A stretch of 64,000 nt of DNA from OM182 bacterium MED-G28 (lineage in GTDB: Bacteria; Pseudomonadota; Gammaproteobacteria; Pseudomonadales; Pseudohongiellaceae), in contig NTJZ01000005.1 of NCBI GenBank assembly GCA_002457215.1, positions 62,001-126,000 on the forward strand, in the 5' to 3' direction. The first letter of the stretch is position 1. Each line of letters opens with the position of its first letter. Both the position numbers and the translations under genes were made by a program. This document shows, piece by piece, positions 7,217-26,007 of the stretch. The notes beneath the pieces are model-generated. The model was not told where the DNA came from and did no database searches. It worked only from the letters and a program-made list of their open reading frames with translations.

Positions 7217-7705
7217 TTAGGAAGCATTGGCTCGAGCTCTCTGTTGATTCAAATACCTTACTAAAGTTAGTGTCTCATTCGGATCCATTCTTCCCACTGG
7301 CCCATTGCTATATACAGAGATTATCACCCGACCTCTCTTGGTCAGAAGAAATTCACTAGGTTGAATGATTTGTCGTTTTTCATCCCACCATGAGCCGATT
7401 GCATCGCCATCATCCTTTGTCATATTAAAGGCGATAGGAAAACCTAAATCTGCAGCAACTTCGGCGGTTCTTTCCTTATCATCTACAGACCCTGCAATCA
7501 GACCTACTCCTTGCTCAGCGAACGCTTCACGGCGTGCCTCATATCCGGCCAACAGCCGGCGACAATAGGGTCACCAATGGCCGCGATAGAACAAAGCGAG
7601 GGTCATTGGATTGCTAAGGTCTCCAGGCAGATTCATGGATTCTCCGCCTACAAGGCTCAGAGAAAGGTCCGGAAATAAATTCCCGGGGTCGAGTTTTTGA
7701 TTCAT
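7217..7705 (-). CDS. Selenocysteine-containing peroxiredoxin-like (redoxin) protein, UGA at codon 45
   Basis: Reading from the ATG at 7705 gives an AhpC/TSA-type redoxin: FPDLSLSLVGG, then TLALFYRGHW, an in-frame UGA at 7573-7571, then PYCRRLLAGYEARRE, and on to the stop near 7217 (162 residues counting the UGA as one). The motif is HW-U-PYC, and homologues are expected to have HWCPYC, so UGA replaces the catalytic Cys and forms a UxxC redox pair. A stem-loop follows the UGA (listed separately). There is no signal peptide, so the protein is probably cytoplasmic, acting in peroxide or thiol-disulfide chemistry. Without UGA decoding the gene looks like a 111-residue fragment starting at a TTG. 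A nonsense mutation is the alternative, made less likely by the hairpin and by a second similar case at 24259. Confidence 0.85.
7545..7559 (-). promoter_or_regulatory. Candidate bacterial SECIS hairpin of the redoxin selenoprotein
   Basis: On the minus strand CCGGC-TGTTG-GCCGG forms a perfect 5-bp GC stem with a 5-base loop. The stem starts 11 bases and the loop 16 bases after the UGA, and the loop has G in its second position. These fit the usual description of bacterial SECIS elements (apical loop 16-37 bases from UGA, a G among the first two loop bases). SelB binding is inferred. Confidence 0.65.
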
Positions 7706-23140: not shown

Positions 23141-24067
23141 CTAAAGCTGGGAAGCAAACTCACGGAGCTTTGCTTTTAGAATTGTGGTGTTGTCTGGACC
23201 AATGCGCAGTAGTTGCTTGTGCACTTCTTGTAAATTCTCGATGCTAGCATCAGCATAGAGATACATTACTGAAGGCTTTACCAATTGATAGGGGCCTTCC
23301 ATGTTCGTGGTTCGTACAATGTTATTAATTGATAAGCGGAGAGTTTCATCGAAACTCACATTTCTAAACCCTATCTCAGCATAGGCTTGCTGAAACAAGG
23401 GAGACAGTGTCCGGTATAAAGTGATCGCCGCATCAGTATCGAGAGAAACAAAAGTTTGCACTATTTCATCGAATCTTGCGTGTGCAGAATCCTCCATAAC
23501 AAAAAAATTCTCATCAATATTACTTACCGGCATCTCCTCTCCTAATGCTTTGTATGGCAGGCCAGTCTGGGGGAATTCACCACGACTAATATTCTCAACG
23601 AAAACTACGAACTTTCTTACAATCTGATCTTGTGCAAGTAATCGCAGAACTGATGCACCATTTTGCATAGCTCGTAGACCTTCAAAAACGAACGTGTCTG
23701 AATTATTAAGTGTAGGAAGCTGAACCACATTCAGCTCATCTTCAACAATAGATTCCTCTACTACCACTTCTACTTCTACTTCTACTTCTCTGGGTGGCGG
23801 CGCAATTTCAACCTCCTCCGCTACAGCTGCTACGATCGGAGGTGAATCTGCTTCAGGCTGAATGCGTATTTGAGGAAGTGCAGTGGGAGATTGTTGACCT
23901 TGCGATGGCCTTTCGGCAGATTCAGGAGGTTCTATTGTCGGTGCAGGGGGTTCTATGAGGACAGTAGTTGTCCCTTGAGGCGCTTCAAAGGTAAAGGCAA
24001 AGTAAACCAAGGACAGCAGAGTTAGAATCGCAACTGCGGCAATTGCATATAAACCTGATTTAGACAT
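23141..24067 (-). CDS. DUF3014 family membrane-anchored protein
   Basis: 308 residues: one N-terminal transmembrane segment (residues 5-28), then a Pro/Glu-rich low-complexity linker to about residue 110 that includes a Glu-Val repeat built from a repeated GAAGTA-like codon pair, then a globular DUF3014 domain (LRLLAQDQIVRKFVVFVENI to the end). It is probably an inner-membrane protein with a periplasmic domain. DUF3014 function is unknown. The gene is flanked by a terminator toward the peroxiredoxin. Confidence 0.8.
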   Translation of the reverse strand: MSKSGLYAIAAVAILTLLSLVYFAFTFEAPQGTTTVLIEPPAPTIEPPESAERPSQGQQSPTALPQIRIQPEADSPPIVAAVAEEVEIAPPPREVEVEVEVVVEESIVEDELNVVQLPTLNNSDTFVFEGLRAMQNGASVLRLLAQDQIVRKFVVFVENISRGEFPQTGLPYKALGEEMPVSNIDENFFVMEDSAHARFDEIVQTFVSLDTDAAITLYRTLSPLFQQAYAEIGFRNVSFDETLRLSINNIVRTTNMEGPYQLVKPSVMYLYADASIENLQEVHKQLLRIGPDNTTILKAKLREFASQL

Positions 24068-24193
24068 GTGTTCCTCTGCTCTACTTGACCCAAGCTTAAA
24101 ATGCTCTATGCATCAGCTTCTACTAAAACACTATTTACTCAAAACCCTTTGTTAGAGTGCGTTGAATCAACTTAGTTTCAATTTCTTATTAAT

Positions 24194-24232
24194 CAAAAAA
24201 ACCCGACCACTCAGTAACTGTGTGATCGGGTT
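24194..24232 (-). terminator. Terminator for the exported peroxiredoxin
   Basis: On the minus strand AACCCGA and TCGGGTT (24226-24232 and 24200-24206) pair with further matches inside, followed by a T run. It lies 27 bases after the peroxiredoxin stop; a T run on the other side could let it work in both directions. Confidence 0.75.
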
Positions 24233-24258
24233 CTGATTTTTCTTTATAATCTAATAAA

Positions 24259-24801
24259 CTAAATTTTAGGAAAGCCCAATTCGTCCATTGTTTGGGTCAA
24301 ATCCCGTCCCGCCGTTGCTGGATTAGTTTCTTTGTCGATCTTCAAGATCATGCCATCCTTATCTATGTAATAAGTCCAGCGGTTGGCAAACCCGACTTCC
24401 ATAAGAACGTCGTAGTCACCAGCCATTTCCTTAGTAGGATCCGCAAGGATTGGAAAACCAGCTTCGTGCTCTGCCGCAAAAGCCGTATTATCTTCCAGCG
24501 TATCTACACTAGCCATAAAATATGCAACGTCAAAACTTTGAATTTCTCTAGCACTGTCACGCAGCGCTTTACATTGCATAGTTCAGCCGCCGGTGAAGGC
24601 TTTGGGAAAGAAAGCAATGACTACAGGCTTGTCTCCGCTAAATTCGGAAAGCGAGTAGGTTTTACCATCTGAGGCTTGCAGCGAGAAGTCAGGTGCTTTA
24701 TCACCGACTTCCAGAGCTGCCGCTAACTGACTCCCAAGCGCCATTACTGCCACTAATGCAGATAGCATGACTCGGGTTAGCCGATAGGCAAATTGAGACA
24801 T
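24259..24801 (-). CDS. Exported selenocysteine-containing peroxiredoxin, UGA at codon 73
   Basis: One continuous frame of 180 residues, counting an in-frame UGA at 24585-24583 as one. A signal peptide ([20 protein letters not shown]) leads to [28 protein letters not shown], then [13 protein letters not shown], then a peroxiredoxin C-terminal half ([34 protein letters not shown]). The UGA sits where BCP/AhpC-type enzymes have the peroxidatic Cys (P-x-x-FT-x-GC-T), and a Cys four residues later could resolve it. A SECIS-like hairpin follows. It would reduce peroxides in the periplasm. Without UGA decoding it appears as two ORFs of 72 and 106 codons. A nonsense mutation is possible but less likely. 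Confidence 0.88.
24550..24568 (-). promoter_or_regulatory. Candidate SECIS hairpin of the peroxiredoxin selenoprotein
   Basis: On the minus strand AGCGCTG-CGTGA-CAGTGCT forms a 7-bp stem (one G-U pair) with a 5-base loop. The stem begins 14 bases and the loop 21 bases after the UGA, and the second loop base is G, as described for bacterial SECIS elements. Confidence 0.7.
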
Positions 24802-24960
24802 AATCTCCTCCAGTTGTTAATAGAGCCTGTTTCAGAAAACACCTGACCCAAGCACTTCTTTTGTACCTTTTGTGGAGCTAAATTTCCAGCAAAATTGCCC
24901 AAAAAGCCGGTATTTGAGTAGGATTTGACGTCGGATCTAACAAATTCTGCCTAGCCCTAT

Positions 24961-26007
24961 CTAAAATAACCTACGGGAGGCCTGCACCAGCTGTTCTGAT
25001 TCAGTGACAAGCTCGGCAATTTGAACTTCGATCTGTTGTTTTTCTGAGTTACTTAGCTTTGTACTACTGTTTTTAATTCCTTCCAACATCGCAATTGATC
25101 GTGAGATCTGTCTGGTATGTCGAACCAGAGCAAATTGTTTCGCCTCTCGCTGAGAAAGACGATAACGGGGGTTTTCTACTTGAACGGTGAAACATTGGCG
25201 AACTGTCTGGCCTTGGGAGTTACGCACGTTGCTGCAGCGGGTTTGGTTAATGTAAGGATTTTCTGTGCCTTCAAATGCGGTATAGGGAGTTCTCGCCACA
25301 GACCGGGCTAGGGTTAAATCGATTTGAGATTTTCCATAGATAACTGCAAGCAAATCTTCTCTGCTTGCTGCAGGCTGCAATTCGACGCCTTCAATCACTC
25401 TTTCATAAAATAGGCTTAATTCCCCTGCAGTGTTGAGTAATTCTCTTCCAGACTGGGCAAGCAAGTTCTCTCTAACGACACGCAATTTCCAATTGCCGTA
25501 AATTTCAGCAGCTTCAAGATATCGCAGGTCCTCATAATTAAATAAACGAGAATTTACGAAATAATACAATTCTTGCAGATTATCTACTTCCTCCCAGCGC
25601 TCTCCCCGTCCATTATTTTGAATAAGAGAATCCAGAATTGGAATTTGTTCATGGCTATAAAGACCGGTGTTGATTCGAGTGATCTGCAAAGCTTCGGAAT
25701 GATACCGAACAGCATTGTCATAATCTTCGAGCTCAACATAGAAATTCGCAAGATCATTATATATTTCAACTAAAGATTGATCGTAAACTCCTAAATCACT
25801 CTGAATATTTTCGATCGTTAACTGACGAGCAGCAAGTTCTTGCGTAATTTCCAGAGCACGCGCTTCAGTATCAATAGAGTCGTCGATTTCTCCCGCTTCT
25901 TGTTCAGTATCCTGAACTAGACATTGTCCAGACACTACAGCAGTGAATTGTAGGCAGCCTACAATCAATAATCCCCATGCTATGTGCTGCCTGTAAAACA
26001 TCTTCAT
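24961..26007 (-). CDS. Exported TPR-like protein
   Basis: 348 residues with an N-terminal signal peptide ending near Cys29 (VVSGQC, possibly a lipoprotein start). Tetratricopeptide-like helices lie at residues 70-115 (VEIYNDLANFYVELEDYDNA, VRYHSEALQIT), and the C-terminal third is helical and charged (SQREAKQFALVRHTRQISRS). TPR proteins serve as scaffolds. No partner is evident and the C-terminal half has no recognised domain. It stands 159 bases upstream of the peroxiredoxin on the same strand. Confidence 0.7.
   Translation of the reverse strand: MKMFYRQHIAWGLLIVGCLQFTAVVSGQCLVQDTEQEAGEIDDSIDTEARALEITQELAARQLTIENIQSDLGVYDQSLVEIYNDLANFYVELEDYDNAVRYHSEALQITRINTGLYSHEQIPILDSLIQNNGRGERWEEVDNLQELYYFVNSRLFNYEDLRYLEAAEIYGNWKLRVVRENLLAQSGRELLNTAGELSLFYERVIEGVELQPAASREDLLAVIYGKSQIDLTLARSVARTPYTAFEGTENPYINQTRCSNVRNSQGQTVRQCFTVQVENPRYRLSQREAKQFALVRHTRQISRSIAMLEGIKNSSTKLSNSEKQQIEVQIAELVTESEQLVQASRRLF

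Follow-up and report, generated by a model that had tools for sequence, protein, structure and literature searches.

The stretch of DNA analysed here, called the window below, comprises 64,000 nucleotides from a draft genome (89.98% complete, 25 contigs) of OM182 bacterium MED-G28. It carries a gene for an AhpC/TSA peroxiredoxin of 180 residues (Table 1), which lies on the minus strand, a point left unstated in the preliminary description of the locus. The frame contains a single in-frame TGA, at codon 73, and is otherwise open. Reading through this codon gives the motif PKAFTGG-U73-TMQC, and the Pfam domain AhpC-TSA (PF00578) extends across the UGA from residue 32 to residue 153, with an E value of 2.8e-32 and 111.7 bits against a cut-off of 26. 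Both results confirm the continuous frame described earlier, running from a signal-like start through this motif to a peroxiredoxin end. A standard list of open reading frames splits the gene in two pieces, so that the enzyme is missed. The 78-nt stretch after the stop folds at -22.2 kcal/mol into a strong hairpin with a T run, and a strict consensus scan for promoters and terminators listed none at the locus, passing over this hairpin as well.

Table 1. Features of the peroxiredoxin locus and of a second UGA-containing gene, in window coordinates.
Feature	Position	Strand	Basis
Gene for the predicted Sec-containing AhpC/TSA peroxiredoxin of 180 residues (ATG at 24801, stop TAG at 24261-24259)	24259..24801	minus	frame, Pfam, orthologues
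In-frame UGA, predicted selenocysteine 73 (residue 73 of 180), peroxidatic position	24583..24585	minus	alignment to Cys forms
Cys77, candidate resolving Cys, +4 from Sec	24571..24573	minus	conservation
Predicted bacterial SECIS hairpin, 7 bp, loop CGUGA	24550..24568	minus	model fit and conservation
Signal-peptide-like N-terminus, residues 1-29 (end set by eye)	24715..24801	minus	composition
Ribosome-binding-like GGAGGAG upstream of the ATG	24802..24811	minus	by eye
Terminator-like hairpin and T run just past the stop	24191..24238	minus	folding
Neighbouring gene for a TPR-like protein (name by eye)	24961-26007	minus	tblastn
Neighbouring gene for a membrane-anchored protein (name by eye)	23141-24067	minus	tblastn
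Second UGA redox gene, RGHW-U-PYC, UGA at 7573-7571; separate, 16 kb away	7217..7705	minus	

Orthologues with UGA at the same position were found in 13 of 59 genomes of the family, its own included (69-99% identity to the query; twelve from genus g1 and one from g6), and orthologues with Cys at this position in 11 (61-67% identity, genera g4 and g7), the TAG flagged in the Cys orthologue of G049 being its normal end. The remaining 35 genomes hold weaker matches only (E 8.1e-21 or worse). Among the best 80 public loci (more exist), which partly overlap with the family genomes so that the two sets of counts are not additive, 70 carry UGA and 10 carry Cys. They include a 97% identical orthologue from a record named Gammaproteobacteria bacterium (L042), UGA orthologues from several Pseudohongiella sp. 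records (64-82% identity) and the Cys form from LSUCC0112 (L113), a cultured strain (PMC6606908), so that at least the Cys form is open to laboratory study. By these record names the source organism, an uncultured gammaproteobacterium, is taken to be a relative of Pseudohongiella. The subfamily is narrow: in a class-wide sample of 274 genomes, the matches at 1e-35 were the source genome itself and two others, both without the stop.

Across the 13 UGA orthologues, the median dN/dS is 0.068 before the UGA (28 of 78 pairs usable, the rest saturated) and 0.066 after it (48 of 78 pairs usable, the rest saturated). The genome also encodes a BCP paralogue of 31% identity (63609-64031 in window numbering, its coding region beginning beyond the window end), and the alignment to it is ungapped through the active site. 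In this alignment the UGA faces the peroxidatic Cys of the paralogue, as it faces the Cys of the 11 family orthologues, in agreement with the Cys replacement assumed in the preliminary description. The predicted gene family presents two of the signs by which selenoprotein genes are recognized from sequence: orthologues retain the UGA within sequence that is coding before and after it, and other orthologues have Cys at the UGA position.

The UGA is followed by the hairpin AGCGCUG-CGUGA-CAGUGCU, which starts 14 nt past it and has its loop 21 nt past it; the geometry, 7 bp with G at loop position 2, agrees with the earlier description. The model for bacterial SECIS elements (bSECIS) allows a loop of 3-9 nt, a stem of 4-16 bp, G in the first two loop positions, a distance of 16-37 nt from the UGA and a minimum free energy of at most -7.5 (PMC13188914). 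With its loop of 5, stem of 7, G at position 2, distance of 21 nt and energy of -8.5 kcal/mol alone (-9.5 kcal/mol for 46 nt), the hairpin satisfies this model; a search against Rfam returned no matching family. As free-standing evidence the hairpin was rejected, because 30 of 200 shuffled sequences reach an equally good fold (z -1.04) and the model, with its limit of -7.5 kcal/mol, also admits 3 of the 38 ordinary TGA stops in the sequences analysed. Since the hairpin alone is no better than chance, the case rests on comparative evidence.

Of 83 UGA sequences, 80 repeat this spacing and loop on a stem of 6-7 bp. By hairpin-only energy, 46 of these 83 pass -7.5 kcal/mol and 80 pass -6, compared with none and two of 21 Cys sequences, some genomes being counted twice in these totals as the family and public sets overlap. 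Among the 13 UGA orthologues, which have a median pairwise identity of 75% at the nucleotide level, the synonymous difference in codons +6 to +10, those of the hairpin, is 0.000 against 0.503 gene-wide, the lowest of 109 five-codon windows, whereas the same codons reach 0.436 in the 11 Cys orthologues (120 codons were used for the UGA and 121 for the Cys set, those with the same amino acid in at least half of the pairs). Distinct stretches free of N numbered 33 from the 83 UGA sequences and 13 from the 21 Cys sequences; the seven pairs are formed in 93.5% of cells in the former and 27.5% in the latter, and when the partners are shifted by 1-3 columns, pairing in the UGA rows does not exceed 55.4%. 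Covariation as a proof of the hairpin was rejected, as only one of the seven pairs, the outermost, is changed on both sides in the 33 UGA rows and one more on one side only, and the count of both-side changes is reached by 496 of 500 shuffles; 8 of 500 reach the percentage paired and the covariation score. With this single both-side change and an outermost pair that is unpaired in 12 of the 33 rows, covariation adds only a little.

The preliminary description had held that a lack of selenocysteine genes would speak against its reading, and such genes proved to be present. Profile searches of the genome found SelA (526.4 bits, 3e-158), SelD (291.6 bits, 6e-87) and the start of SelB, covering the first 141 of 581 profile positions with 191.6 bits at the end of contig C3; this truncation keeps the score under the full-length cut-off. 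A tRNA-Sec was not found in this roughly 90%-complete bin, the best hits staying below the cut-off. In the 12 UGA-bearing relatives, SelB is above the cut-off in all 12, SelA is present in 11 (not found in G017) and tRNA-Sec in 11 (not above the cut-off in G006). In G042, where ARAGORN confirms it, the tRNA-Sec gene is located some 15 kb from selB on the 3' flank, and it is this flank that the present bin lacks. All 13 UGA genomes fall within the 28 of 59 family genomes with SelA or SelB (hypergeometric 9e-6, for genomes that are close relatives). SelA is likewise found in 9 of the 11 Cys genomes, so the Cys form is no simple marker of the loss of the Sec system.

Several observations on the machinery stand by themselves. 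A 762-residue frame with the motif CAGC (1484-3772 of L128, G000:C4:59500-65000) carries SelD as its C-terminal portion and is NAD(P)H dehydrogenase-like, by eye, in its N-terminal portion; Ndh-SelD fusions are mentioned in PMC2398784. In the same genus, G034 has SelA, SelB and tRNA-Sec and no close orthologue of the Sec peroxiredoxin gene, and G017, with no SelA match, carries the UGA gene alongside SelB and tRNA-Sec.

The protein class was approached through two alignments, A6 (the window gene and 37 of the best 80 public loci) and A1 (17 of the 24 family orthologues). The AF2 model folded from A6 (mean pLDDT 87.4) has Bcp1 (3drn, E 1.2e-15) as its closest PDB fold, followed by AhpE, and sequence profiles agree with a Bcp-side placement, so that model and profiles together place the predicted product among the peroxiredoxins, towards PrxQ, BCP and AhpE within the AhpC/TSA superfamily. 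The NCBIfam cut-offs were not reached for BCP (PRK09437, 76.5 bits against 140), PrxU (NF040737, 44.8 against 270) or ResA (35.8 against 170). As the BCP and PrxU cut-offs are missed, the protein is filed near PrxQ and AhpE as a member of neither.

All 38 rows of A6 share P66, T70, U/C73, C77 and R141, and the 17 rows of A1 likewise all have C77; Cys occupies +4 in 79 of the best 80 public loci, L075 having an N there. An active-site Arg is part of the peroxiredoxin active site. The translated sequence accordingly contains the PxxxTxxC/U and Arg pattern of peroxiredoxins, PxxxTxxU being the motif given for Sec peroxiredoxins (PMC13188914). A thioredoxin-like UxxC motif was considered as well and ruled out, neither CxxC nor UxxC being found at the active site in A1 or A6.

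At the N-terminus of the window protein, two Arg precede a hydrophobic core with a mean Kyte-Doolittle value of 2.70. All 24 family orthologues (starts chosen by script, cleavage site by eye) have at least one Lys/Arg before the core, and an Ala-rich stretch and then a near-invariant E31 after it; the BCP paralogue has no N-terminal hydrophobic core. The signal peptide proposed earlier fits this signal-like composition in 24 of 24 orthologues, and the peroxiredoxin is, judging from it, probably exported. Bacteria do export selenoproteins, formate dehydrogenase N being an example, so no novelty is claimed for export by itself.

The TPR-like neighbour occurs in 61 of the 70 Sec and all 10 Cys loci among the best 80 public loci, and the membrane-anchored neighbour in 60 of the 70 Sec and 9 of the 10 Cys loci, some loci being cut by contig ends. 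These two proteins are possible partners of the peroxiredoxin. Since the same two neighbours accompany both forms, the exchange of Sec and Cys seems to have occurred in place; the Cys loci of the Pseudohongiella branch show the same gene and the same neighbours without the hairpin. In a quick tree of 83 rows (L095, L119 (partial) and identical proteins left out; L123 and L124 as outgroup), the Sec/Cys label needs two changes, and 13 Cys ingroup rows cluster with three Sec rows at an SH-aLRT of 87. The tree weakly suggests a change from Sec to Cys in the Pseudohongiella branch, a direction that is weak because the root lies on the long branch to the two Cys outgroup rows and the well-supported branches force one change only.

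On these comparisons, it is very probable that UGA codon 73 stands for selenocysteine, and other readings of the codon are correspondingly improbable. The draft state of the source assembly could point to a sequencing error or to a decaying pseudogene with a nonsense mutation, but the same UGA recurs in 13 of 59 family genomes and in 70 of the best 80 public loci, and the sequence after it retains a median dN/dS of 0.066, by which this explanation is in practice refuted; with the UGA present across so many assemblies a base error is not workable, just as the preliminary description had judged base error or chance nonsense to be unlikely. It is scarcely credible that the UGA is a true stop that ends a 72-residue exported peptide, with a separate product starting at the ATG two codons further on. 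Codon +2 is ATG in all 13 UGA orthologues of the family and the mechanical list of reading frames starts a frame there, but the two halves belong to a single domain, the lack of synonymous change in the hairpin codons is confined to the UGA forms, and nine of the 70 UGA loci among the best 80 public loci (L053, L078, L094, L099, L100, L112, L115, L120 and L121) have Ile, Leu, Arg, Gln or Ala at this codon. Hardly any weight can be given to decoding as another residue, through a code change or near-cognate read-through, for which no specific point was found: UGA ends ordinary frames, with 38 TGA stops after frames of more than 150 codons in the sequences analysed, on which ground an altered genetic code was rejected, and all 13 UGA genomes, though close relatives, belong to those with SelA or SelB.

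With codon 73 read as selenocysteine, the protein could still act as a thiol-disulfide oxidoreductase instead of a peroxidase, as the AhpC/TSA fold is common to ResA-type reductases and the ResA profile gives a match, albeit one under its cut-off. This alternative is unlikely in view of the PxxxTxxU motif and the peroxiredoxin Arg, the lack of CxxC or UxxC at the active site, and Bcp and AhpE as the nearest folds. The preferred reading is that of a SECIS-directed selenocysteine in a peroxiredoxin of the superfamily that is exported through its signal peptide and works by Sec73/Cys77 chemistry, and a probability of about 0.8 is assigned to all of these parts holding jointly.

According to this selenoperoxiredoxin reading, UGA codon 73 would be decoded as selenocysteine by way of the downstream hairpin, SelB and tRNA-Sec, a recoding to which the conservation points. 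Sec73, assisted by Pro66, Thr70 and Arg141, would then reduce a peroxide, and Cys77, one helical turn on, would close a selenenyl sulfide with Sec73, which a periplasmic thiol donor may reopen.

PrxQ and BCP are the nearest neighbours of the window protein by fold and sequence. The resolving Cys of PrxQ sits at +5, in helix 2, and the BCP paralogue has its second Cys at +5 as well, whereas C77 of the window protein lies at +4; the latter also differs in staying below the PRK09437 cut-off and in its probable export. The AhpE of M. tuberculosis, the second-best fold after Bcp1, is a 1-Cys peroxiredoxin by its PDB title, in contrast to the window protein with its conserved C77.

Sec peroxiredoxins are a known kind of selenoprotein: 43 Sec peroxiredoxin (TxxU) sequences are given for the Sargasso Sea (PMC1088965) and 253 Sec Prx (TxxU; pfam00578/COG1225) sequences for GOS (PMC2398784), and the Sec peroxiredoxin of Eubacterium acidaminophilum is cited in PMC13188914. 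As far as these sources describe them, they are like the window protein in their AhpC/TSA domain, in a peroxidatic Sec within TxxU and in a hairpin right after the UGA, and unlike it with regard to the low match of the window protein to the PrxU model (44.8 of 270 bits), its signal-like N-terminus and its conserved Cys at +4. Its own marks are the probable export and this conserved Cys (UxxxC), and some of the 253 GOS or 43 Sargasso Sea sequences may belong to the same subfamily. The selenoproteins named Prx-like 1 in GOS share the superfamily and are described there with Sec in a thioredoxin-like UxxC, as distinct from TxxU and UxxxC in the window gene (PMC2398784). Searches of the open-access literature found nothing for UxxxC in connection with selenoproteins or for Pseudohongiella with selenocysteine, and, by title, nothing on bacteria for exported bacterial selenoproteins or periplasmic selenoperoxiredoxins.

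A broader proposal is offered tentatively, at somewhat less than even odds: the gene may represent a distinct exported UxxxC peroxiredoxin subfamily of gammaproteobacteria related to Pseudohongiella, working through a selenenyl sulfide between Sec73 and Cys77. The subfamily would form one part of an envelope redox system based on selenium, to which two other UGA-containing redox genes of the genome, with N-termini that look signal-like by eye, might also belong; Sec would be the ancestral state, and one branch would have regained Cys in place. The branch with the regained Cys would, if so, mostly have kept its Sec genes (SelA in 9 of 11). The pairs of Sec and Cys orthologues, with the same neighbours and with the hairpin either frozen or gone, offer a natural experiment on what makes a bacterium retain selenium in a peroxidase that is probably exported; these matched loci also bear on the interplay of translational recoding and export.

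The preliminary description had counted two UGA cases in the 64-kb window, and the second gene is indeed present at 7217-7705. It encodes an AhpC/TSA-fold protein which, by its UxxC motif, is of the published Prx-like UxxC kind, and its UGA is followed by a hairpin of -8.6 kcal/mol that agrees with the bSECIS model. Two more AhpC/TSA genes with UGA lie elsewhere in the genome, one with RSADW-U-PYC in a 404-residue frame with a long C-terminal extension (L132, G000:C24:38092-38556) and the other with RSFDW-U-PFC (L134, G000:C19:139914-140309), both having N-termini that look signal-like by eye; these three other UGA genes share the motif UPxC. A SelW-like gene (L141, G000:C22:162101-162307; Pfam Rdx, 3.7e-15) has its UGA in the motif CMA-U, and with the four AhpC/TSA genes it brings the genome to at least five UGA-containing redox genes.
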